64,000 nucleotides of DNA from Moniliella sp. 'wahieum'. Lineage: Eukaryota > Basidiomycota > Moniliellomycetes > Moniliellales > Moniliellaceae. The stretch lies in NCBI GenBank assembly GCA_003971905.1, contig RSEE01000067.1, positions 124,001 through 188,000 of the forward strand. Reading direction: 5' to 3'. The notes under the pieces are model-generated. The model had not been told where the DNA came from and did not search any database. It saw nothing but the letters and a program-made list of their open reading frames with translations. This document shows positions 14,147-54,517 of the stretch, piece by piece. The stretch's first letter is position 1. Each line of letters begins with the position of its first letter. The position numbers were made by a program, and so were the translations under genes.

Positions 14147-15167
14147 TTTCCTTTTGCTGGGAACAGGATGGGTGGTGATATCCACTGGACTATATCGAGT
14201 AGGCATGCACAACTGCAGACGATAATGGATTGGAGGATTAGATCAGGGTCATGCGTCATGCATCATGTAAGGGTTGTGTATGGATGGGATGGATCTTGAG
14301 CAAAATGGAAGATTAGGCGACGGCTACACAGTCGACACAGTCGTCACTCGTTCGCCACGGGATGATTCAGCCACGTATACCCCACCTGATGCCTGAAAAG
14401 GTTATTGAAGCTTGAAGCTTGAAGACGGACGGAGAGCAATTAGCAACAAGGGAGTAGGGATTAAGTCTGTAACACTCCTGATGGCGTCAACGGGGGGGGG
14501 GCAATAAGCAATAGCGCCCACTGCGCAACGGCCACAGGGGTTGTGGAGCAGGCTACATAGCAAAAAGGCTGTTCGGCAACATAGAGGGTTGGGTGGGAGA
14601 GGGTATCTGGGCGGAATGGGCCGGATGTGCAAGAGAATGGGGTGTCTGGAGGCGTGGTGGGTGGTGGGTGGAGGCGGAGGCGGCATGGAGCAGCACACAG
14701 CGCATGCCAGGAGGGCGGCAAGAAGCTTTGCCGAGCGGTGCGTACAGGCTAATGCGACCCGCCCTATGCACGGAGGTGGGGGGGACCACGCGCACCTGCG
14801 CTTTCTGGCTCTGCTTTTTGCCTGCCAGTCCAGCCAGCCGAGGCGAAGAGCCGCCCCATCGTCAGGGGTGTTGGGCGGGGGGCACGGGGCGAGTGGGCTG
14901 GTGCTCCTCCAGCGGTGCGTTCTCCGCAGCGCCGGTGGGCGCACGTCCATCCTCCAGCCTGCCTGAACACCGCCCGTCGGATGGCGCCCGGCTGTCTCAG
15001 GCGGCAGGACACCGCTGTCATACTCCAATGTCATGGCAGCTCCGCTGATATATATCCCCTGCCTCTCCCCTTTGCCCGCCGGCCGCACCCCACCCCCACC
15101 ATCCCCCTTTCCCTAGCCTTTTCCCAGCCCCCCAGCCCCCCAGCCCCCCCAGCCCCCACCATCAGCA
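14147..15167. other. intergenic region and promoter of the LC8-repeat gene
   Basis: No gene is supported. The direct repeat GAAGCTTGAAGCTTGAAG lies at about 14407-14424. The minus-strand open frame from 15088 to 14402 has Pro/Cys-rich composition without any domain and overlaps the promoter, so I reject it. From 15057 to 15167 the DNA is strongly pyrimidine-rich, as in many fungal core promoters. Confidence 0.55.
15048..15055 (+). promoter_or_regulatory. TATA box of the LC8-repeat gene
   Basis: ATATATAT lies 113 bp before the ATG at 15168 and is followed by about 100 bp of C/T-rich DNA. The position and context suit a TATA element, but this rests on sequence only. Confidence 0.5.
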
Positions 15168-18100
15168 TGTCCACTCCCAACGCAGCTGGCCAAGCCACGC
15201 TGGACGCCGGCGTGCAGCAAGTCGTTGACGCCACGCTGTCCAACGGCGCAGCCGCCACCGCCAAGGCCCTCGACCACGCCTACGGCCCTCACTGGTCGGT
15301 CCTCTCTGCCTCCGGCACACGCATCGTCCACGCCGACGCCGGCACCCTCCTCACCCTCCCCACCGCCTTTGGCGAGGTGACAGTGTGGAAGACGGCCGTG
15401 CTAGCCCAGGACGCAGACCACTTTGCTGCCACGCCCGCCACGCCGGGAATCCATACCGACGTTGCCGCCTCGCTGGAGCAAGTGTCGCTGGCAATGAGAA
15501 CCGAAGTGTATGCCCTGGCTGGCTCGGCCCTGGCGCTTTATGGAAGCTCCGCCATCCAAGTCGCCAATTACATCCAGGACAAGATCGCCCTCTCTCCGCT
15601 CTTTGCCGAGGGTTGGCACATCCACACTGGAACGTCATTTTCCCTCCTCCCCTTTAGCACCGCCAACAAGGTGGTTGACTTTGTTGTGGCCGGGCAGTGT
15701 TTTACCCTCTACTTTGGCCATGTTGCTGCGCCTGCTTTGCCTGACACTGCGGGCTCCAAGGAAGCGGCGACGACCATTGGCACCGCCATTGTGGAGGAGG
15801 AAGGCTTCGGAATCCAAGGCAGCGCACAACTCAACACCCCTATTACTCCCGTCTTGGCCGCAGGCCAGACCGTTGTCCAGACCTCCAACCAGGTCGACGT
15901 CAACGAAATCAGCACTGCCGAGGGCAGCACCATCGAGGTTGCCCCGCAAGTTGCTGATGAGAAGAAGAGCATCACGAACATTACCACCACTGAACAAAGC
16001 CGTACGCTGCCTGCCCACAGCACCACAGCGGCCATCGTGGAAGAGACCTCGGGCAGCGCCGCGGCCGTCGGCCCGGTCGTTGGGTCGACGACAACAACAA
16101 CAACCAAGGAGTAGTAACCAGCGTTCCTGCCTCCGAGACCGTCGTGGTACAGCTTCCATCGAAAGAAGTGGTGGAAACAGTGCAAGTTCAGCACCAAGCC
16201 CAGCCCACGGTGACAGAGACGCAGGAGGCGCATGTGGTCGAGGTCGGTGGCGCTGGCGCTGCGCTCCCAATCACCACGCGTGAAGTCCGCGACGTCACCA
16301 CAGGCTCCACCGCCACGTCATCTACCAACACCACCGTTCATACCACCACCAGTCCTACGGCCCAGCCTGGAAAGTCGGTGTTCACAACGGTGACCACCGT
16401 CACAGAGGAAACTACCTATGTGATCGGACCCAATGGGGAGCTAATCCCTCAGTCAACGTCGCAAGTGACAGAAGTAACTCCCAGCGAAACGTACCAGGTG
16501 GAAGGTACAGCGTCGGCTGGGCCGTCTGGCAAACCGAGCAGTACGTCGTCTCAACCACGACTGTGGGGGAAGACACCACGTCTCCCCGTGGACAGCCCAG
16601 CACGGAAACCAAGCGGGCCGAGAGCCAAATGCGTTCGCTGGCCCAAGACTGGCTTGGCCTGGGCGTTGTGGCTGGCACGGTTGGGCTAGTGCATTCGCTT
16701 CGGCCCGAGGTTCGGAGTGCCTCACGCGAACAATTGTTGTCCACCAGTGAGGTGACCCGCACCTCGCTCACTTCCCTGCCGGAGGCGGAGGTGCAGACAA
16801 TTTTGGTAGACGCCATCCACACCTCCACTTCCACCGCCGAGCTGGCTCAGTTGGTCCAAGATTCGCTCACGACCAAAACGGGCAAAAGGGATGGTACCTA
16901 TTGGTCGGTGAGGTGGAACTGGGTCCCAAGGTGCTCGAGGTTTACCGTATCAAGTTGGCTTCCGAGACGTTCACTGTCGTTCGGATCGATCGGGAGCAAA
17001 GCACGGTCAAGAAGCAGATCCCTATCCCCCAACCTCCCGTGAATAAAGAGACTATTATTAGCCTGCCTCATCAAGAGACGGGAACCAAACAAAGTACGTA
17101 TTTCATCCTTCTTGTTCTTTTTGCATGCACGTGTACAGAACTAACACTATTCCGCGACCTCTTGTCAAGTTGAAGAGGAGGCCAAGGCGAGGCACAGAAG
17201 TGGTTGTAGCTTTGCCCACCCTTTCCGGTCCTCCGACAACGAATACTACATCGATCCAAGACCTGGTTGAGGAAACGCGTGGTGTGACTCTGACGACCGA
17301 GACGTCAAACACATCGGATGTCCAGACCAAGGAACAACAGATCGTGGCCCTGCCTTCGGTCGAACAGACCGTTGTCCAGGTGCAACCAGAAGAGAAACTA
17401 AGGAGCAGAAGAGTGGATTGTCAATCGAACATGAGACCGAGGTCTACCAGAAACCTGCTACGGAAACTGCGATTGAGGTCGTGAATACTGAGGCTTCAGA
17501 CACCGCCACAAAGACCGAGGTGGATGTCCAAGAGAAGCAGTCAAATCAACCTCAAGTCGAAGTTGAAAAAACTGTGCAATCGTCTGCGGATCAGATTAAC
17601 GAGTCTGTTGATGTGACCGAGACAACGCAGACGACGCAAGTCCGAGAAATCCAGTCGATCCAACCTGAATCCGAGACTCAAAAGTCTGTGGCCTCTGTGG
17701 TTCAAGTGGTGGACACGGAGGCAGAAACGACCCCGGATACGAAGACGGAAGCCATGTGGATCCAGCCCAAAGAGGAGGTGAAAACGCCGGCGCTGGAGTC
17801 TGCAATTGAGAATGTTGAGGAGGCGGAGGCAGTGGAAACTGCCAAGGTGGAAACGTCCACGGTTGTCCAAACCACTACTGAAGCCAAGGAGACTACGGCC
17901 GTGGCGCAAGAGACGAAGCCCGAGGAGACTATCATCGTCGAGAAAGAGATCCCGGTCGTCGAAGAGGCCAAGGTGGAGGAAGATGCGAAAACAACGGAAA
18001 CAACGGATGTTGGCGCAGTGACCAATCTCGAAAGCACATCCGAGGCCAAGGTGAAGGAGCAGACCAGGGAGGTGGAGGCAGCGGCGGTTGTTGCGGCTGG

Positions 18101-21100
18101 CGTGGTCGCGGCGCATGAGACTGCTGAAGAGGTCACCAGTACTTTGGCCGAGCGAAGTCTCCCAGCCGTCGAGCAGAGCAGCACAGTCGAGGAGCATGAG
18201 ACCAAGGCGGTTGAGGTGGAAGAGAGCGAGGTGGTTAACAATGAGACCACGAAGGAGGAGGTCAAGTCCGTCGAAGAGAAGGTTACACCTGATGTTCCCA
18301 TTGCCTCTGTGGTGGAGTCGAAGGAGACCGAGGTGGAGGTGGAAGTGCCTGCGCCCGTCAGCGCGCCGGCTCCTCGCGGGATTGAAAGCAGCACAATCCA
18401 GACCCAGGTTCAAGGGACTGAGAGTGTTACCACCCAAGAGATTCGCGAGACCAAGCAGGTGGAAACGACGGAGAGTACCGAGGAAAGTGTTGCCGTTGAC
18501 GTCGCTGCCCAACCGGAGGAGACCGGTCCCCTTCCAGCTCGGGAATTACCAGCTGAAGTCACGGAAGTGGTGACTGAGGTCGAAGTACCTGCCCCGCGTG
18601 AACTCCCAGCGAAAGAGACGGCGCCACAAGAGCTTCCGGCCGTGGTGTCAACTACGCGTGAGATTCCACAGCAGGGAGCACCAACCCGTGAGGTGGGCCA
18701 GACGAGTGCAGCGGAAGAAACCACGGTGCAAGAGACGACGGTCGAATCATCTCAGATTACCACCCAAGAGATTCGCCAGGAACAGCATGCCGTGCCGACC
18801 ACCCAAGTGACCGAGGTGGACGTGGTGGAATTGCCCACTCGCGAAACGAAAGATCTGACCAAAACCTTGACCGAAGTGGTGGGGGGAGAAACGGTCGTAC
18901 AAGCGCCGAAAGAAATCTCCACGGGCGAGGTGACCACCTCCCGGGAACTGCCCGCTCCACGGGAAGTGCAACCGGTGCAGCCGGCAACGACCAGCCGCTG
19001 GGGATTCCGGCAGTGGCTGCACGGCTTGGGCAGCAAGGCGGCAGAACACGGTGCGAGCGTAGCCACCGTCGCGGGCGGCGCGGTTGCGACGGCGATCGCG
19101 GGCGTGGCGGTGGCCAAGACGGTGTCTGCGGCGGCTAAAGACAAGACGGCAGAGCAGCTGCGCTCGATGGCCCAGCTCGGTGCGTCCAAGGGTGCGTCGG
19201 AGCACGAGTCGCAGCTGGTGCTCGACTCGGTCACGCAGGCCATCACGACCACGACGTCGACCGACGAAGTGGCTGACGCGGTGGCCCAGACGCTGGAGGA
19301 CCAGACGGGCCAGACGGGATGGCACGTGGTGGTGGCCGAGGACAAGTATGCGGACGTGGGGGCGGCAGAGGATGTGGCGGCGTACCAGACGCTCGAGGGG
19401 GCGGACAGTACTACACGGTGTACCGGACGGTGACGACGATCACGCCGGAGACGCGCACGCAGCTGGTGCAGTCGCTGCAGTCGCCGACGGCGGTGAGTGG
19501 GACGACGCTGTCGGAGGCGGAGACGAAGACGGTGCTGGGCGCGGTTGTTAGCTCGGTGGAGACGGCCACGTCGGCGGAGGACATTGGGACGGTTGCTGTT
19601 CAGAAGCTCGAGGCCGAGACGGGCAAGGTGGGTTGGCACGTTGCGCCAGCCTCTAGCGTCGAGGTGGGCACGCTCACTCAGTACACGATCCTCAGTACGT
19701 CTCACCGGTTCCCCCCCTGATTTTGCATGTGAAAACTAACAGCTTCTTTGTTTTGTTCCACCGCCAGCGCTGGGAGGTCAGCCGACCGTGGTGTACTATG
19801 AGGGTATCGAATCAGCTGCCGAGCAGGTGGCGGAGACCCAAGAGACCCAAGAGACCCAAGAGACACAAGAGACAGTCGAAACGCGCTCTGTGCATGAACA
19901 CCGGGACCAGCTCAAGGAGAAGGTTGATGATGTGAAGGAGAAGGTGGACGAGGCGAAGGAGCACGCGAAGGACAAGGCGAAGGACGCGCTGGGCCTGGGC
20001 GCGGTGCTGGCCGGCGTGGTGGTGCTGCACGAGATTGAGAAGCACACGCGCGAAAAGACGGAGGCGGAGCTGGTCAAGGACGCCCAGGTCGACTCCCACA
20101 CGCAGTCAGTGTCGGACGAGGTGGTGGTGGACACGATTGCCAAAGCCATCCGCGCGCACGGCGAGTCGTCCGAGGAGGTGGCGCAGTATGTGACGTCGGC
20201 GCTGGAGAAGCAAACGGGCCAGACGGGCTGGCAGCTGGTGGTGGGCGACCGGCGGCTGCTGTGAGCGAGGCGGGCGCGGCCGAGTATTCGACAGTGACGA
20301 TTGACAAGCACGTCTTTACTGTGTACCGCATCGTCACCACCACCACTACGACCGTCACTACCACGACCACTGCCGAGACGGGCGCGGAGGCGACGACGAC
20401 GGAATCGGTCGCCCGCACGCAGGAGACGGAGGTGGTTGCGCCCAAGCGCCGCGGGGGGTGGGGTCTTGGCAAGCTGATCCGGTCGCTGGGGGCGAGTGCA
20501 GCCGAGCATGGCGCAGCGGTTGCGGGCGGCGCAGTTGCGACGGCGATCGCGGGCGTGGCGGTGGCCAAGACGGTGTCTGCGGCGGCTAAAGACAAGACGG
20601 CAGAGCAGCTGCGCTCGATGGCCCAGCTCGGTGCGTCCAAGGGTGCGTCGGAGCACGAGTCGCAGCTGGTGCTCGACTCGGTCACGCAGGCCATCACGAC
20701 CACGACGTCGACCGACGAAGTGGCTGACGCGGTGGCCCAGACGCTGGAGGACCAGACGGGCCAGACGGGATGGCACGTGGTGGTGGCCGAGGACAAGTAT
20801 GCGGACGTGGGGGCGGCAGAGGATGTGGCGGCGTACCAGACGCTCGAGGTGGGCGGACAGTACTACACGGTGTACCGGACGGTGACGACGATCACGCCGG
20901 AGACGCGCACGCAGCTGGTGCAGTCGCTGCAGTCGCCGACGGCGGTGAGTGGGACGACGCTGTCGGAGGCGGAGACGAAGACGGTGCTGGGCGCGGTTGT
21001 TAGCTCGGTGGAGACGGCCACGTCGGCGGAGGACATTGGGACGGTTGCTGTTCAGAAGCTCGAGGCCGAGACGGGCAAGGTGGGTTGGCACGTTGCGCCA

Positions 21101-24100
21101 GCCTCTAGCGTCGAGGTGGGCACGCTCACTCAGTACACGATCCTCAGTACGTCTCACCGGTTCCCCCCTGATTTTGCATGTGAAAACTAACAGCTTCTTT
21201 GTTTTGTTCCACCGCCAGCGCTGGGAGGTCAGCCGACCGTGGTGTACTATGAGGGTATCGAATCAGCTGCCGAGCAGGTGGCGGAGACCCAAGAGACCCA
21301 AGAGACCCAAGAGACACAGAGACAGTCGAAACGCGCTCTGTGCATGAACACCGGGACCAGCTCAAGGAGAAGGTTGATGGTGAAGGAGAAGGTGGACGAG
21401 GCGAAGGAGCACGCGAAGGACAAGGCGAAGGACGCGCTGGGCCTGGGCGCGGTGCTGGCCGGCGTGGTGGTGCTGCACGAGATTGAGAAGCACACGCGCG
21501 AAAAGACGGAGGCGGAGCTGGTCAAGGACGCCCAGGTCGACTCCCACACGCAGTCAGTGTCGGACGAGGTGGTGGTGGACACGATTGCCAAAGCCATCCG
21601 CGCGCACGGCGAGTCGTCCGAGGAGGTGGCGCAGTATGTGACGTCGGCGCTGGAGAAGCAAACGGGCCAGACGGGCTGGCAGCTGGTGGTGGGCGACCGG
21701 GCGGCTGCTGTGAGCGAGGCGGGCGCGGCCGAGTATTCGACAGTGACGATTGACAAGCACGTCTTTACTGTGTACCGCATCGTCACCACCACCACTACGA
21801 CCGTCACTACCACGACCACTGCCGAGACGGGCGCGGAGGCGACGACGACGGAATCGGTCGCCCGCACGCAGGAGACGGAGGTGGTTGCGCCCAAGCGCCG
21901 GGGGGTGGGGTCTTGGCAAGCTGATCCGGTCGCTGGGGGCGAGTGCAGCCGAGCATGGCGCAGCGGTTGCGGGCGGCGCAGTTGCGACGGCGATCGCGGG
22001 CGTGGCGGTGGCCAAGACGGTGTCTGCGGCGGCTAAAGACAAGACGGCAGAGCAGCTGCGCTCGATGGCCCAGCTCGGTGCGTCCAAGGGTGCGTCGGAG
22101 CACGAGTCGCAGCTGGTGCTCGACTCGGTCACGCAGGCCATCACGACCACGACGTCGACCGACGAAGTGGCTGACGCGGTGGCCCAGACGCTGGAGGACC
22201 AGACGGGCCAGACGGGATGGCACGTGGTGGTGGCCGAGGACAAGTATGCGGACGTGGGGCGGCAGAGGATGTGGCGGCGTACCAGACGCTCGAGGTGGGC
22301 GGACAGTACTACACGGTGTACCGGACGGTGACGACGATCACGCCGGAGACGCGCACGCAGCTGGTGCAGTCGCTGCAGTCGCCGACGCGGCGGTGAGTGG
22401 GACGACGCTGTCGGAGGCGGAGAGAGACGGTGCTGGGCGCGGTTGTTAGCTCGGTGGAGACGGCCACGTCGGCGGAGGACATTGGGACGGTTGCTGTTCA
22501 GAAGCTCGAGGCCGAGACGGGCAAGGTGGGTTGGCACGTTGCGCCAGCCTCTAGCGTCGAGGTGGGCACGCTCACTCAGTACACGATCCTCAGTACGTCT
22601 CACCGGTTCCCCCCTGATTTTGCATGTGAAAACTAACAGCTTCTTTGTTTTGTTCCACCGCCAGCGCTGGGAGGTCAGCCGACCGTGGTGTACTATGAGG
22701 GTATCGAATCAGCTGCCGAGCAGGTGGCGGAGACCCAAGAGACCCAAGAGACCCAAGAGACACAAGAGACAGTCGAAACGCGCTCTGTGCATGAACACCG
22801 GGACCAGCTCAAGGAGAAGGTTGATGATGTGAAGGAGAAGGTGGACGAGGCGAAGGAGCACGCGAAGGACAAGGCGAAGGACGCGCTGGGCCTGGGCGCG
22901 GTGCTGGCCGGCGTGGTGGTGCTGCACGAGATTGAGAAGCACACGCGCGAAAAGACGGAGGCGGAGCTGGTCAAGGACGCCCAGGTCGACTCCCACACGC
23001 AGTCAGTGTCGGACGAGGTGGTGGTGGACACGATTGCCAAAGCCATCCGCGCGCACGGCGAGTCGTCCGAGGAGGTGGCGCAGTATGTGACGTCGGCGCT
23101 GGAGAAGCAAACGGGCCAGACGGGCTGGCAGCTGGTGGTGGGCGACCGGGCGGCTGCTGTGAGCGAGGCGGGCGCGGCCGAGTATTCGACAGTGACGATT
23201 GACAAGCACGTCTTTACTGTGTACCGCATCGTCACCACCACCACTACGACCGTCACTACCACGACCACTGCCGAGACGGGCGCGGAGGCGACGACGACGG
23301 AATCGGTCGCCCGCACGCAGGAGACGGAGGTGGTTGCGCCCAAGCGCCGCGGGGGGTGGGGTCTTGGCAAGCTGATCCGGTCGCTGGGGGCGAGTGCAGC
23401 CGAGCATGGCGCAGCGGTTGCGGGCGGCGCAGTTGCGACGGCGATCGCGGGCGTGGCGGTGGCCAAGACGGTGTCTGCGGCGGCTAAAGACAAGACGGCA
23501 GAGCAGCTGCGCTCGATGGCCCAGCTCGGTGCGTCCAAGGGTGCGTCGGAGCACGAGTCGCAGCTGGTGCTCGACTCGGTCACGCAGGCCATCACGACCA
23601 CGACGTCGACCGACGAAGTGGCTGACGCGGTGGCCCAGACGCTGGAGGACCAGACGGGCCAGACGGGATGGCACGTGGTGGTGGCCGAGGACAAGTATGC
23701 GGACGTGGGGGCGGCAGAGGATGTGGCGGCGTACCAGACGCTCGAGGTGGGCGGACAGTACTACACGGTGTACCGGACGGTGACGACGATCACGCCGGAG
23801 ACGCGCACGCAGCTGGTGCAGTCGCTGCAGTCGCCGACGGCGGTGAGTGGGACGACGCTGTCGGAGGCGGAGACGAAGACGGTGCTGGGCGCGGTTGTTA
23901 GCTCGGTGGAGACGGCCACGTCGCGGAGGACATTGGGACGGTTGCTGTTCAGAAGCTCGAGGCCGAGACGGGCAAGGTGGGTTGGCACGTTGCGCCAGCC
24001 TCTAGCGTCGAGGTGAGCAAGCTCACTCGGTACATCATCATTGGTTCGTCCATCCCCCTCCCCCCTCATTTGGCTTTGCTAACCTCCTATAACAGTGTTG

Positions 24101-25772
24101 GGCGGCCAACGTATGATTGTTTATTACCTGGGCGGGGGGTCCGAGACTACCGCTCGTCTCTCTGCTCCTGAACTTCATCACTCCGCATCATCTACTTCTG
24201 TATTGGGTGTTGGCTCTTCTGGCTGGTGTCTCTCTACTGCACACTCTTTCTGACCGCTGGTCTACTGCTTCGACTGTGGAGTTGTGGCAAGCAACGACCA
24301 TCGACTCGGATCAATCCAATGTCCCCAAGGCTGAGGCTAAGGAGATGGTCGAGATAACATTGTCGTCGATTCGCCAATACGGAACGGACACGACCAAGCT
24401 GAGCGAGGTGGTGGCGGCCAAAGCTGAACGAGAGTCATGGTGGGAGCGACGGTCACTGGATTGTGCTCGTGGCCAATGGGTTTGCCCAGCAGGTGGAGTC
24501 ACACGCCACACGTTGGCTCCTTTTCAATGTTGACACTGTTTACTTTACTCTGTTCTATACGGTGAACCACTCGTGGCGTGCGGGCTTCAGCCGATGGCTC
24601 TCCCGCCGGGTCAATGATGCGCATGACCGGATCGCTGCGGTTAGTGAGACGCTGACCGGGATGACGTCTGGCCTGACACTCTGGCACCAAATTGGGGACG
24701 ATACCCGCAGTTTGTCTGTCGAAGAACTTCGTAAGGCGACGACGTTCGAGGGAAGCACACTGGGCGGTGACGAAGCCGAGATGGTATACACGCTTACCTA
24801 CCAAGCCATCCGTGAACACGGCGAGTCGAAGCAAGCGCTAGACGGCTGGCTTATCGCTCAACTTAACCAGCACAGTGGCGGGTGGGAGGTGATTGTCGCG
24901 GACAAGTATGCCGATGCGGTGAAGCAAGCGGATACGGTGGCAGGCTACACATTTTTCCGGGTAGCGGCCTACTACTTCACCATCTATCGCCTAGTTTCGG
25001 TTCACCATGCCACGATCGCACCTGAGGCGGTGGGAGAGTTTGGCCTGGCCAACACAATAAGGTCCAAGACACTGCGCGAGTTGACGGCGCACTCAGAGTT
25101 TGTCGAGGTGGCATCTCCTTTGGACGAGGCGGACCGCACGTTGGCTCTCGATCTGGCTACCCGCAGCATTCATGCTCACGGCGAGTCCAACCTAGAGATG
25201 AGCAAGGCGATGGTGCGCAATCTGACCCAACGCACGGGGCGCGAAGGCTGGCTGGTCTGGGTGAGTCAGTCGAGCTTTGTGGCACCCCCAGCAGGAGCAC
25301 GCTATGTCTACTTTGTTATCTTTGGGTACTACTTTACCGTGTGTGTACTCTACGGAGCCGGCGCCGCCTCGGACGTTGCGCGCGGAAAGCTCGAACTCCT
25401 CCCTCTCCAGTCTGTCCCTCGCCGAGCTCCCTGCTTCCTTGCAGGGGGTGGGACTGCAAGAGTTGAAGACCTACATTGAATTGCACGAATCGACGCTGAG
25501 CACATCGTACCGCGACGCGGTGCTGGAGACGGTGGTCCAGGCGTTTGCACCAGCACCATGCATCTCCAACGAAGGTGCGCAGCTTCACTACAACCTATCT
25601 TGACAAGACCACCAAGCCCGGGTGGCACCTCCATATGGGCTCTACTTTCACGCCACATGAACAGCTCAGCGCCGAGCACGTTCTCTTCGTTCTACACGGC
25701 GTTCACTTCTCTGTTTGGCGCACTGACCCCAAGAAGCACCACCACAGAGGATGGCTTCACAAGTTTATCTGA
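15168..25772 (+). CDS. giant multidomain protein with about 18 dynein-light-chain (LC8)-like domains
   Basis: Predicted at about 3,400 residues. The start MSTPNAAGQ lies 113 bp after a TATA box. Each module ends in a strand pattern like that of LC8/DYNLL: a helix pair, then GWHxxxG, then two strands ending in VYR, VWRT or LYF. The clearest examples are GWHIHTGTSFSLLPF (about 15615) and PGWHLHMGSTFTPHE (about 25620), which match the WHCIVGRNFGSYVTHE of human LC8. Domains lie near 15.2, 15.5, 16.8, 19.2, 19.55, 20.1, 20.65, 21.0, 21.55, 22.1, 22.45, 23.0, 23.55, 23.9, 24.35, 24.8, 25.1 and 25.5 kb. An acidic Thr/Glu/Val-rich linker with many TQ motifs fills about 17.2-19.0 kb. Gly/Ala-rich hydrophobic segments precede many domains. 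Introns: 17094-17169, 19695-19767, 21147-21218, 22593-22664, 24044-24095. Some ten frame shifts look like consensus errors. Two adjacent genes cannot be excluded. Confidence 0.75.
19084..24013 (+). repeat. 1.45-kb in-gene tandem array, about 3.4 units, each with an intron
   Basis: Units run 19084-20534, 20535-21981, 21982-23432 and a partial 23433 to about 24013. Unit lengths are 1451, 1447 and 1451 bp. Each full unit encodes a Gly/Ala hydrophobic segment, three LC8-like domains, a short (ETQ)n stretch, a Lys/Glu-rich amphipathic segment and one 72-73-nt intron (GTACGT...ACTAAC...CAG). I find no base substitution between units, only about ten indels of 1-2 bases, mostly in G or C runs or short repeats. 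Intron and exon are equally identical, so the copies are recent or kept uniform by recombination. Confidence 0.92.
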
Positions 25773-49934: not shown

Positions 49935-52660
49935 CCTGGCAGGGAGATGGTGGTGGGGAGGAGGAAGGAGAGAGCACGCGCTATGGACTGCGCAAACGAC
50001 AGGTGGGATGGGTGTGTGGCAGACACAGGGGCCGTGCGTTGCGCAACGGGAAACGGTACTAAATGATTAATGATGGCGCAAAGGTTGTGTCAGGTGGGTG
50101 GCCAATGTGTGTGCCTGCAAGTGCTGCCTCCGCGGCGGCCGGGGGATGGTATGGATGAGAACAGATGAGGGACGATCGGGATCGATGACCGTCCGATCAC
50201 CCCACGGACGCTCTCTACTTGTGCCGCGCGCAGGCGCTCAGGCCGTTGGCTGAGCTGCCCTTTTGAGTCGACGGCTCTTCGGGCGCACAGCGCCAAGGAA
50301 GGCAAACGCCTGCCTGCCGGTACGCAAGCCGCAGAGGAGCAACCGGAACAACCTGCCACAACTCACACCACTCACCACAACCCACCACAACCCACCACAT
50401 GCGCAGCACACAAAAAAGCCCCAGGGCCACCCAGCCACTAGTCACGAGTCACTAGTCACCGCCAGTCACCGCGCCCACCAAGGATGCCGCCTGCCGTGCA
50501 GCTGCAGCACACGGCAGGCTGCTGCGTACCGCGCTCAGCTTCGCTCTTCTTACTTGGGTGGGGGGGCTTTGCGTCGTCTTGAAGAGCTCCATTCGCTTCC
50601 CTCGCCGGCTCCTCGATCAGATCGATCATGAATCATCGATCATCGATCATCAATCATCCCCTGCCCGCGCCAGTGCCCCAAACACTGTCGGCGTGCTGGG
50701 TGGGCGTGCTGGCGAGCGAAACAGGCGCCGACACTGGCTTGGTGCGGTGTGCGCCACCCAGTGATCTGCTGTGGCGGCGGCGATCTCGGCTGGATTTTAT
50801 TTGGCAGCTTGAGTACTGCAGTACAGAGTCTCAGTACTGATTAATTACTGATGGCTTTGCTTTGCTCGCCTCGCCTTGTGCATGGCCCGCCGTGTCGGCC
50901 GCCTGGCAGACGCGGGCCTCAGGCTGAGGCCTGAGATCAGGCGACGGCTGCGTAGCCGCCGGGGCCGGTAAGAGTGGGAGGCACAGCAGATGCCGGGTAC
51001 CTAGTAGCTGGCAAGGCACCAATACTCGTGCTGATGCGTGATAGTATGATGCACTACCAATGGATGGCACATGCGCCCTGCGCACCGGCACAGCACTCTA
51101 GAAGGCGGCAGATCTCCACGGTGAGATGCGAGACAGGATGCATGAAGCACATAGGCTAGTAGTTCATCGTAGATGTTGGTCAAGTCGAAGATCAACAACG
51201 GTCACCCGGTCCCCTCCTTCATCTGCACCACCACCCCTACCCAGTACCAATCAAACACTCCGGCGGTTTGGGTGTAGCATGTAGTTGGCTGTCGAAACGC
51301 TGGCGCTGACCACCGTGGTGGCGGTTCGATGTTGGTTGGTGGGTGCATCTTCTGTGGGTGATTATGTGATTGGGAACATCAGCAAGCTGGACATTGCGAC
51401 AGAGAGCCTCTCACCGGCGTGTCTCTTTTGGTTGTCGTTTCTATATACATGGCCGTGACATAATGTGACACTGCTAGTTCATCACATGTCACATGCATGA
51501 TCTGCGTCATTGCTACTACTGGAACGGCCGATCTGGAGAATATGAGGATCAGGAATACTTTGCCGCTGTTGGCATCTCTGTCCTTGAAGGAGGACAGACA
51601 ACAAGACGAGGGTCCGGATTTACCTCGCGGCGGGGGATACACTATGTTGGTAGGCATCAAGCTTGTCCACCTTCTCCAAGCCTGCGTACCAGGTGGACAC
51701 GAGGCGGAATGGGGGGAAATTGGCAAGTAGCTCTCTCATGGACAAGCGGGCAGAACAAAGAGAAAGAGCTCATCATGCATCACTCCCCTCAAGGTCTCCA
51801 GGTACCTGCTACAGCCAGGTCACGCACTGACTGTTCAATATTCAGTACTCAGTCTCAATCCCAATCCCATCTGCACAGCCATGGTTCGGAGGAATGCAAC
51901 AGGCAAGGTGGTTCCACCAACCCCAGCTGTCCCCGGCCATTGCCACTCCAGCTGTCCCCGGCGGCCATCGGCAAGGGCATGCTTGCCTCGTCAGGCAAAA
52001 AGTCCCTCGAGTTCATATTATAAGCCAAAACGGTGAAGGGGGCACGCAAGGTCACGCACCACCGCAGGCCATGTGATCCCAAGAGAGCCCCCGCCATGCC
52101 AAGAGAAAGGTGGTGCAAGTATGTGGGCTGGCTGCAGCCGTTACATGCATGGTGTGCAGGAGGCAAGGCAAGACAGCAGGCCGCGAGCACTAGGCACGGC
52201 GGAATGACCCTGGAGTCACGGTTGACCGCTCCACAGTGACGCAATCGCGCTACTTGTGGTGGTGGTGATAGCAGTGGCGCGTGTGGTGGTGGTGTACGGC
52301 AGTGGACATCTGCGGGTCAGTAGGCCAGGCACTCTCCCTGAGTGCGTGTGCCTCTGCTCCACTCTCCGCCCTCCGTTCCGCTTGGTTCGGCCCCCTTCCG
52401 CCTCGTTCGCTCCATTCGGCATTTGAAACTTGGTGTGGCAGGTTGCTATGTCAAAGTTTTTTCTTTCAGCGGTCCGCAGCCTGTTACCTAATCACGACAA
52501 AACCTGCCATCCATCCGGCCACGTGGAATCGGGCCGCGTGGAGGATGCCCACAGTTAAATTGCTGGCGCGCCACGTGGCTTCCGGCGGCTTCGGGGATAA
52601 ATAGATTTTTGGCTAGCCCCGACATCCTACTCGCACCTGCCTCCGCCACCATCCAGCGCC
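49935..52660. other. 2.7-kb gene-free region
   Basis: No coding sequence is supported. It contains short palindromic words: CACTAGTCACGAGTCACTAG at about 50437, ATCGATCATCGATCAT at about 50634-50660, and AGTACTGCAGTAC at about 50813. The last 200 bp form the ERO1 promoter. Confidence 0.55.
52518..52604 (+). promoter_or_regulatory. ERO1 core promoter: two GCCACGTGG boxes and a TATA-like element
   Basis: GCCACGTGG occurs at 52518-52526 and again at 52570-52578, and a TATA-like GATAAATAG at 52596-52604, about 60 bp before the ATG at 52661. ERO1 is a classic unfolded-protein-response target, and bZIP factors of the Hac1/XBP1 type bind ACGT-core sites. Linking these boxes to that response is inference. 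Confidence 0.45.
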
Positions 52661-54517
52661 ATGGCATCCAGAGCACCAATGTTCCCCACGCGTAGGTCTT
52701 GGGCCGCGCTGGCGATGGGGATCGGGGGCTGTCGTCTTGTCTTTTCTTCTCTCGTTTGCTGTGGGCGGCGACGCACAGTCTCATCTGCCTTCAGTACTAT
52801 CGGACGCGTTGCTAGCTACGCCACCAGGCAACTTGCGGACCGCGGCAACCGAGGACCTGTTCGAGGGGCCCTTGTCCAACTGTACCTTGCGCGGGCCCAT
52901 CGAGAACGCTGAGTGCAATTACGAGCAGGTCGACCAAATCAACGACGACTTCTTCACCCAGCTCCAAGCCATTGTCGCCACTCCCTATTTCCGCTATTAC
53001 AAGACCGACCTGGACAAGGCCTGTCCCTTTTGGCCCGCCAACTCGTTCTGCACCAACGAAAACTGTGCTGTTCAGACCCTTGACGAGGTTCGTATCTACT
53101 TTCCTCGCTGGTCGCTTCTCCCTCTGACTCTTGCCCTTTTCCTTCTCCCCACCTCTCGTTTTCTCTGTCACCCACAGTCGGACGTACCAGAAAAATACCG
53201 GACCAGCACGCTTTCTGCTGTTTCTACCACCCCGGACGAAGTTGTTGCCCACCTAAGTGGGGGCACGGGAGCGTCTTCTTGTCAATGTGACGAGACCAAC
53301 TTTTGTCACTGGGACGACGTGAACTCCCCCGATGCTGTTTTTGTTGACCTGCAACAAAACCCCGAACGCTTCACGGGCTACAGTGGGCCTTCAGCGGCGC
53401 AAGTGTGGCACAGCATTTACGAGGAGAACTGTTTTGGGGTGCCAGGTAAGGCAGTAGGGGTGCCTGTTTTGGCGTCGCCCCCCTCGGGCACAGGCTTCAA
53501 CTCCGACATGTCCCTTAACCCAGCTGCTTCACAAGCATTTGCCTCCTTCCTCTCGGCCATGCAGCCTGACCCGGTTGAAGTCAGCCCCGAGACGGAGAGC
53601 GACACGTGTTTGGAAAAGCGCGTATTTTACCGGATCATCAGTGGTCTTCATGCCTCCATCTCGATCCACATTTGTGATGACTATCTGGACAAGGAGACGG
53701 GCCAATGGGGGCCCAACGAGCAATGCTTCCGGTCTCGGATCGCCAACTTTCCCGAGCGGTTGCAGAACCTGTACTTTGATTATGTCCTGTTTTTACGTGC
53801 GCTTGCACGGGTCGGCGAACAGGCTGCGCTCCAACCCAACTTTACCATCACCACCGCCGGAAACGAGATGGATGACGAGGCGAGCAAAACGGCGTTTGAC
53901 CAGCTCCTCCGTTCGGCGACCAAGCTCAAACCCACGTTTGATGAACGAACGATGTTTTCGGGACCGGATGCGGGGGGCTGCGGGAAGAATTCAAGCACCG
54001 CTTCCGCAACGTGACGGCGATCATGGACTGTGTCGGGTGCGACAAGTGCCGGTTGTGGGGCAAGGTGCAGACGAGCGGAGTGGCAACAGCGCTTAAGATC
54101 TTGTTTGCCTACGATGACCAGGAGACGGCACATGGTACCCATCGTTTCCTCCAGCGATCCGAATTGGTCGCCTTGGTAAATACGGCGAATCGACTTGCTG
54201 AAAGCCTCAAAGCGGTTGAACGTTTCCGTGCCATGTACCAACAAACGCTCAACGTTGAGCAGCCCATCCAGCCTCAGTCCAGTACTGCCCGGGACGTTCA
54301 CCATCCCTTGGCCAACCCACCTTTACCCCCAAAGGAGAAGGACTTCCAAAATGCCCAAACCTCTCCTCCTCCTCTTCTTCACCACCAGCGAGTGCAACTG
54401 AGTACTTGCAAGCACATGAAGACCTGTAATAACAATCCGTGTACTAATGGGAAACTACTTTACGGCCGAGAACGCGGCAATGACACTCCTTCTAACCACC
54501 CACATGCTAAGGTATAG
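52661..54517 (+). CDS. ERO1: ERO1 endoplasmic reticulum thiol oxidase
   Basis: A FAD-dependent oxidase that re-oxidises protein disulfide isomerase in the ER lumen. The ATG at 52661 leads into a signal anchor (VVLSFLLSFAVGGDAQSH, after a one-base shift near 52720). Then come LSNCTLRGPIENAECNYEQV, LQAIVATPYFRYYKTDLDK and CPFWPANSFCTNENC. The CQCDE motif is followed by NFCHWDDV, then TGYSGPSAAQVWHSIYEENC, the FAD/active-site helix region ISGLHASISIHI, and YFDYVLFLRALARV. The active-site CxxCxxC is CVGCDKCRLWGKVQTSGV (about 54030-54080), followed by GVATALKILF. An intron fits at 53088-53177 (GTTCGT...CCCACAG). It is exactly 90 nt and has no stop in frame. A shift is needed near 53985. The final 60 codons are less certain. 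Confidence 0.92.

Follow-up and report, generated by a model that had tools for sequence, protein, structure and literature searches.

The window described here is a stretch of 64,000 nucleotides from the fungus Moniliella sp. 'wahieum', corresponding to bases 124001 to 188000 of contig C67. The genome examined with it comprises 69.5 Mb in 223 contigs. On the plus strand of the window, between 15167 and 25772, motif and position identify 18 sites that resemble the dynein light chain LC8. With a probability of roughly 0.6, this region is a functional gene. It would encode a giant structural protein that arose as an LC8 (DYNLL-type) domain was duplicated internally again and again.

LC8 itself is described as a single-domain dimeric hub. 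In the available text of PMC12017986, its beta3 strand becomes ordered when it pairs with the partner's beta2, and beta3 forms the grooves for TQT, IQT and VQT anchors. LC8 is normally a free-standing protein of 90 residues, and its family (LC8/DYNLL, PF01221) includes the yeast protein Dyn2. In an alignment, the window modules retain its helix pair, its GW(H) strand and its two terminal strands, and they match over nearly the whole domain. They differ from it in three ways. LC8 is a single domain whereas up to 18 stand in one chain here, the groove strand is not conserved, and five of the ten module kinds are preceded by a hydrophobic pre-domain. Strand names used here come from the LC8 alignment, not from a structure.

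Read along the strand, the modules are M1 M2 M3, then A1 B1 C1 A2 B2 C2 A3 B3 C3 A4 B4, and finally D E F G. Eleven of the 18 belong to a tandem repeat with a unit of about 1,450 bp (19054-24034, found by self-match), which holds roughly 3.4 A-B-C units that are 98.1 to 98.7% identical. The other seven are unique: three open the series (M1, M2, M3) and four close it (D, E, F, G). Because the eleven are copies, there are ten distinct kinds of module.

The first-pass annotation of this DNA had proposed about 18 LC8-like domains in one gene starting at 15168. The number stands, since there are 18 sites and a profile recovers 17 of them. The region is not one open frame but several, which frameshifts and five putative introns separate, and the ATG is actually at 15167, with the stop at 25770-25772. 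With those introns removed, the product would be about 3,400 codons long. That it is a single gene across the whole region is suggested by a second genomic copy, on contig C57, and by a database relative, P0001.

The descent of the modules from LC8 is well supported, although no one test carries it. The curated cut-off for Pfam Dynein_light (PF01221) is 29.1 bits, and ten stretches of the window were tested against it. The outcome of this comparison, which the first-pass annotation had recommended, is split. Four stretches match, all under the cut-off at 16.8 to 21.4 bits (C2, E = 3.2e-4; A2, 2.1e-3; half of G, 2.5e-3; M2, 8.8e-3). In the other six, which include E, F and half of D, the match is absent. 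The idea that the outer domains are closest to LC8 thus fails for M2, which ranks behind C, A and the G half. The last module of the second copy scores 27.8 bits, just under the cut-off, and P0001 passes it clearly, at 56.5 bits (E = 3.7e-15), with its best stretch in the module orthologous to G.

Profiles built from several modules find more. A PDB search with five modules of the window and G of the second copy returns dynein light chains for 32 of 34 distinct sequences at E<=1. Leaving out G gives 31 of 38, and a profile that includes three modules from a related gene on contig C21, which pass Pfam themselves, gives 42 of 51. A profile that joins window modules E and F to P0001's D, E and F has 11 matches at E<=10; eight of them, among these the top four, are dynein light chains. 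Single modules do less well in the same database: M2 gives one match only, an irrelevant one to Serine-rich adhesin for platelets (E = 0.19), and E gives none.

In leave-one-out profiles each module type beats all of 20,000 shuffles, M1 barely so (15.2 against 14.5 bits for the best shuffle). A profile of the modules alone finds the genome's own LC8 at 28.6 bits, where the best shuffle reaches 14.5. Aligning the D-E-F set with that LC8 by hhalign gives an E of 9.4e-5 and a probability of 59%.

Introns provide a separate line of evidence. Ordinary LC8 genes are also present in the genome, and five of them (L001-L005) have a phase-1 intron between beta4 and beta5. Read by eye, B2, B4 and four modules of the related gene show a phase-1 intron in the matching position. 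Among the window module kinds this shared intron occurs in B only, and the beta3/beta4 intron of LC8 (L002, L003, L005) was not seen in the modules. It is the PDB matches, P0001 passing the Pfam cut-off and this shared intron in B that argue for LC8 ancestry.

To locate modules, a hidden Markov model (HMM) was trained on nine of them: five from the window, the second copy's G and three from the C21 gene. It was run on all window open reading frames (ORFs) of at least 30 amino acids in six frames. With a threshold of E<0.5 it recovers 17 of the 18 sites, M1 being the weakest at 0.053, and every match lies on the plus strand inside the gene. M2, A, C, E, F and G are matched in part because the model was built from such modules; B, D, M1 and M3 did not enter its training. 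B4 is missed because a frameshift cuts the module, and its support is the motif and its near-identity to the earlier B copies.

A protein database search with the D-E-F ORF found one relative, P0001, among 8,000 candidates scored. The two share 63% identity across 86% of the query; P0001 stays open for 557 residues and has the same C-terminal GWLHKFI. The middle exon found no relative among 7,999 candidates scored, and a search for long relatives found none among 2,693.

Within the genome there is a second gene of this type, on C21 at about 670.6-676 kb, with another copy on C36 at about 68.6-72.3 kb (L032 and L033). Its modules comprise two named X1, a single X3 and several X2. Three of the four tested, the two X1 and X3, exceed the Pfam cut-off, and the X2 tested does not. 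Like the window gene it has tandem LC8-like modules, and its C-terminal GWH module is similar to A and G. The modules with the shared phase-1 intron are its X2 modules, which resemble B in this. It differs from the window gene in that X1 and X3 pass Pfam, and in its Gln-rich linkers with Gly/Ala-rich hydrophobic stretches.

Further weak LC8-like modules are seen at 357.5 kb on C18 (L034) and at 369.4 kb on C67 (L035); these are perhaps more members of the family. Profiles for the flagellar families IFT46 and RSP3 had no match in the genome, but control genomes were silent too, so this is uninformative.

The second copy of the window gene, a haplotype or a recent duplicate, is collinear with it. 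The gene region is about 94% identical between the two, and the neighbouring ERO1 gene 98%. For ten frame segments picked by hand, the uncorrected ratio of non-synonymous to synonymous change (pN/pS) between the copies is 0.31 overall, from 89 synonymous and 82 non-synonymous differences. In the segment called D2-F it drops to 0.10 (18 synonymous, 6 non-synonymous). These substitutions point to purifying selection on the protein sequence. Constraint is argued here from the pattern of changes and not from overall identity, because the 3' flank is nearly as identical as the gene.

The claim that LC8-derived modules stand together in one giant coding region is therefore well supported, and gains from the signs of purifying selection and from the related open exon P0001. 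Several things do weigh against a functional structural gene. The reading frame is repeatedly broken in both genomic copies. Substitution identity over the coding segments, at about 96.5%, is hardly above that of the 3' flank (379/396). Constraint is weaker in M3a (pN/pS 0.56), M1-M2 (0.41) and the linker (0.39), and the G1 segment has no synonymous and two non-synonymous changes. No single module of the window copy exceeds the Dynein_light cut-off, and without G the top three PDB rows are other proteins, T32-15-1, F4132-2 and a designed helical repeat protein; for these, no stretch passes alone. As membrane helices the pre-domains would be borderline in hydropathy, with best 19-residue means of 0.67 to 1.96. 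Finally, nothing connects the protein with septa, motors or membranes.

The broken frame raises the question whether this could be a decayed LC8-repeat gene, surviving as a pseudogene in both copies. Many frame-breaking indels are found in each, and each of the seven coding gaps between the copies in the C-terminal part measures 1 or 2 bases. The indels are small, scattered and different between the two copies, however. The N-terminal parts are separated by 29 gaps, of which 19 are single-base, with the window shorter in 6 and C57 in 13. Three more span two bases, six span 3 or 12, and one spans 56; of the whole set, two precede the ATG and one falls in the intron. Substitutions have conserved the protein, P0001 is open over its 557 residues, and other genes in the assembly suffer similarly. 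LC8 and chitin synthase matches elsewhere (for example C212, C12, L036, L037) are split by stops or frame changes, and this suggests that indel errors extend beyond the window. Chitin_synth_2 has 87 exon-level matches in the genome, the best with an E of 1.2e-211. By themselves these make a fungus likely but not certain, since the profile also matches in 4 of 14 control genomes. For these reasons most of the frameshifts are probably sequencing errors, where it should be noted that lesions common to both copies are invisible in such a comparison. This is then probably a working gene whose frame is disturbed by errors of the assembly, and decay is unlikely. A related doubt is that the gene is real while its A-B-C copy number is an assembly artefact, the true protein having about twelve modules. 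That is the total on C57, which holds one full A-B-C unit and an A-B part, or about 1.4 units, and near-identical units like those in the window would fit an artefact. The units do carry scattered small changes, as separately sequenced copies would: the longest self-match has 18 mismatches and 22 gap openings. An artefact is accordingly quite unlikely. As they stand in this genome, the two copies differ in the number of A-B-C units.

A working gene could also encode something other than a structural protein, namely a multivalent LC8 hub, with LC8-type dimers forming within the chain or with free LC8, clamping client peptides and, for example, clustering dynein or other LC8 clients. The LC8 ancestry of the modules is in line with this, as is module G: by direct letter count, it has as many residues as the genome's own LC8 between the Trp of its GW strand and the Gly in the turn that joins beta4 and beta5. 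The beta3 sequence of that LC8, GSYVTH, is kept in none of the ten distinct module types, and B and M3 are shorter in this region of the alignment. The first-pass annotation had suggested a scaffold, a structural matrix or a multivalent hub for motor or septum components. Since the groove strand is not conserved, client binding is weakened as an explanation. In both linkers together, the anchors of PMC12017986 (as given in its available text) are not enriched: TQT is found once where 2.0 are expected, and [TSIV]QT six times where 4.8 are. The loosest form, [TSIV]Q[TV], has 13 occurrences against 8.8 expected, a number reached in 9% of shuffles. It comes out best in the 583-residue linker alone, with 10 against 5.7 expected (4.8% of shuffles are as high). 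With the groove strand not conserved and the anchors not clearly enriched, the structural multivalent scaffold is preferred over a dynein adaptor, and a client-clamping hub is unlikely.

What precedes the modules also differs from LC8. In M3, A, C, D and E the module is preceded by a common hydrophobic stretch followed by an EL motif, both of which ordinary LC8 is without. In leave-one-out comparisons of this pre-domain, the number of shuffles out of 20,000 that reach the score is 4 for M3, 30 for A, 0 for C, 0 for D and 2 for E. For B, F and G, which lack the shared pre-domain, it is 958, 597 and 5,710.

The linkers between M2 and A1 are rich in Thr, Val and Glu. As pieced together they are 306 and 583 residues long, with the first extending into the pre-domain of M3. 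A motif picked after reading the sequence, [TPSA][RQ]E[LIV], occurs 11 times in these linkers (about 15.74-18.99 kb) against 1.1 expected, with a maximum of 7 in 5,000 shuffles.

In coordinates, all on the plus strand, the gene starts with M1 at 15167-15412, which has no Pfam match, and M2 at 15431-15742. M3 with its hydrophobic pre-domain spans 16545-16990 and includes a frameshift; it is backed by the HMM, the leave-one-out profile and the pre-domain comparison. Introns were placed by visual inspection of the splice signals and the reading frames on either side, one at 17094-17172 (GT...CTAAC...AG) and one in each B module. The Thr/Glu/Val-rich linker follows at 17173-18990.

Within the tandem array, the A and C modules are placed by motif, position and the HMM: A1 at 19137-19440, C1 at 20046-20340, A3 at 22035-22336, C3 at 22943-23242 and A4 at 23486-23785. 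A2 (20588-20887) and C2 (21494-21793) have the Pfam matches given above. Splice signals and the HMM place B1 at 19451-19815 (phase-1 intron 19695-19767), B2 at 20903-21262 (phase-1 intron 21147-21218) and B3 at 22350-22710 (intron 22593-22664). B4, at 23801-24150, is placed by motif, repeat identity and splice signals, with a phase-1 intron at 24044-24095 and an internal frameshift.

Module D (24252-24570) also has an internal frameshift; it is found by the HMM and leave-one-out profiles, and it matches P0001. For E (24676-25002) and F (25060-25347) the HMM and leave-one-out evidence is joined by the PDB profile search. The C-terminal module G is at 25403-25769, and it is its second half that matches Pfam.

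Ten neighbouring ORFs were compared with Pfam, and half of them belong to a family there, namely two protein kinases, a NIF/BRCT phosphatase-like ORF, ERO1 and malic enzyme. The ERO1-like ORF (window 52617-54011) has, besides its 98% copy on C57, two 72% copies on C80 and C6. These are perhaps recent pairs inside an older duplication.

How could such a protein have come about, and what might it do? Repeated internal duplication of an LC8 domain would have led to the giant protein of about 3,400 residues in the window copy. Its modules would retain the LC8 helix pair and beta2, beta4 and beta5, but not the sequence of beta3, the strand of client binding and partner pairing. They may then be packing units that pair with their neighbours or with other chains, instead of free dimers that grip TQT-type peptides. 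The hydrophobic pre-domains, in five of the ten kinds, and the long acidic linker suggest a long, multivalent and possibly membrane-associated scaffold; how many A-B-C units it has would determine its length. Both contact with a membrane and self-assembly are inferred. A bolder version is doubtful but possible: once a soluble hub that clamps peptides, the LC8 fold may have become the repeat unit of giant structural proteins of variable length, encoded by at least two genes in this genome. Their hydrophobic pre-domains would anchor them in or on a membrane, and they would self-assemble into a lattice by pairing of modules with each other or with the [TPSA][RQ]E[LIV] motifs of the protein's own linkers.

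In the open-access literature, no published description of a protein with tandem or multiple LC8 domains was found, where most subscription papers are outside this coverage. Papers on a cestode transcriptome, on axonemal structures and on nuclear pores came up and do not appear to describe one. This agrees with the first-pass annotation, which knew of no such architecture. Closest are the tegumental-allergen-like/CaBP proteins of trematodes (PMC5431922, PMC12347358, PMC3317908). In the available text of these sources, they too have a dynein light chain-like domain inside a larger, non-dynein protein. They are animal proteins, with that domain fused to EF hands and not in an array.

If the reading given here is true, a motor light chain has become a structural repeat, with a unit number that differs between two copies in one genome. 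A lineage that concatenates LC8 would then also offer a natural experiment for telling the LC8 features that serve folding from those for client binding.

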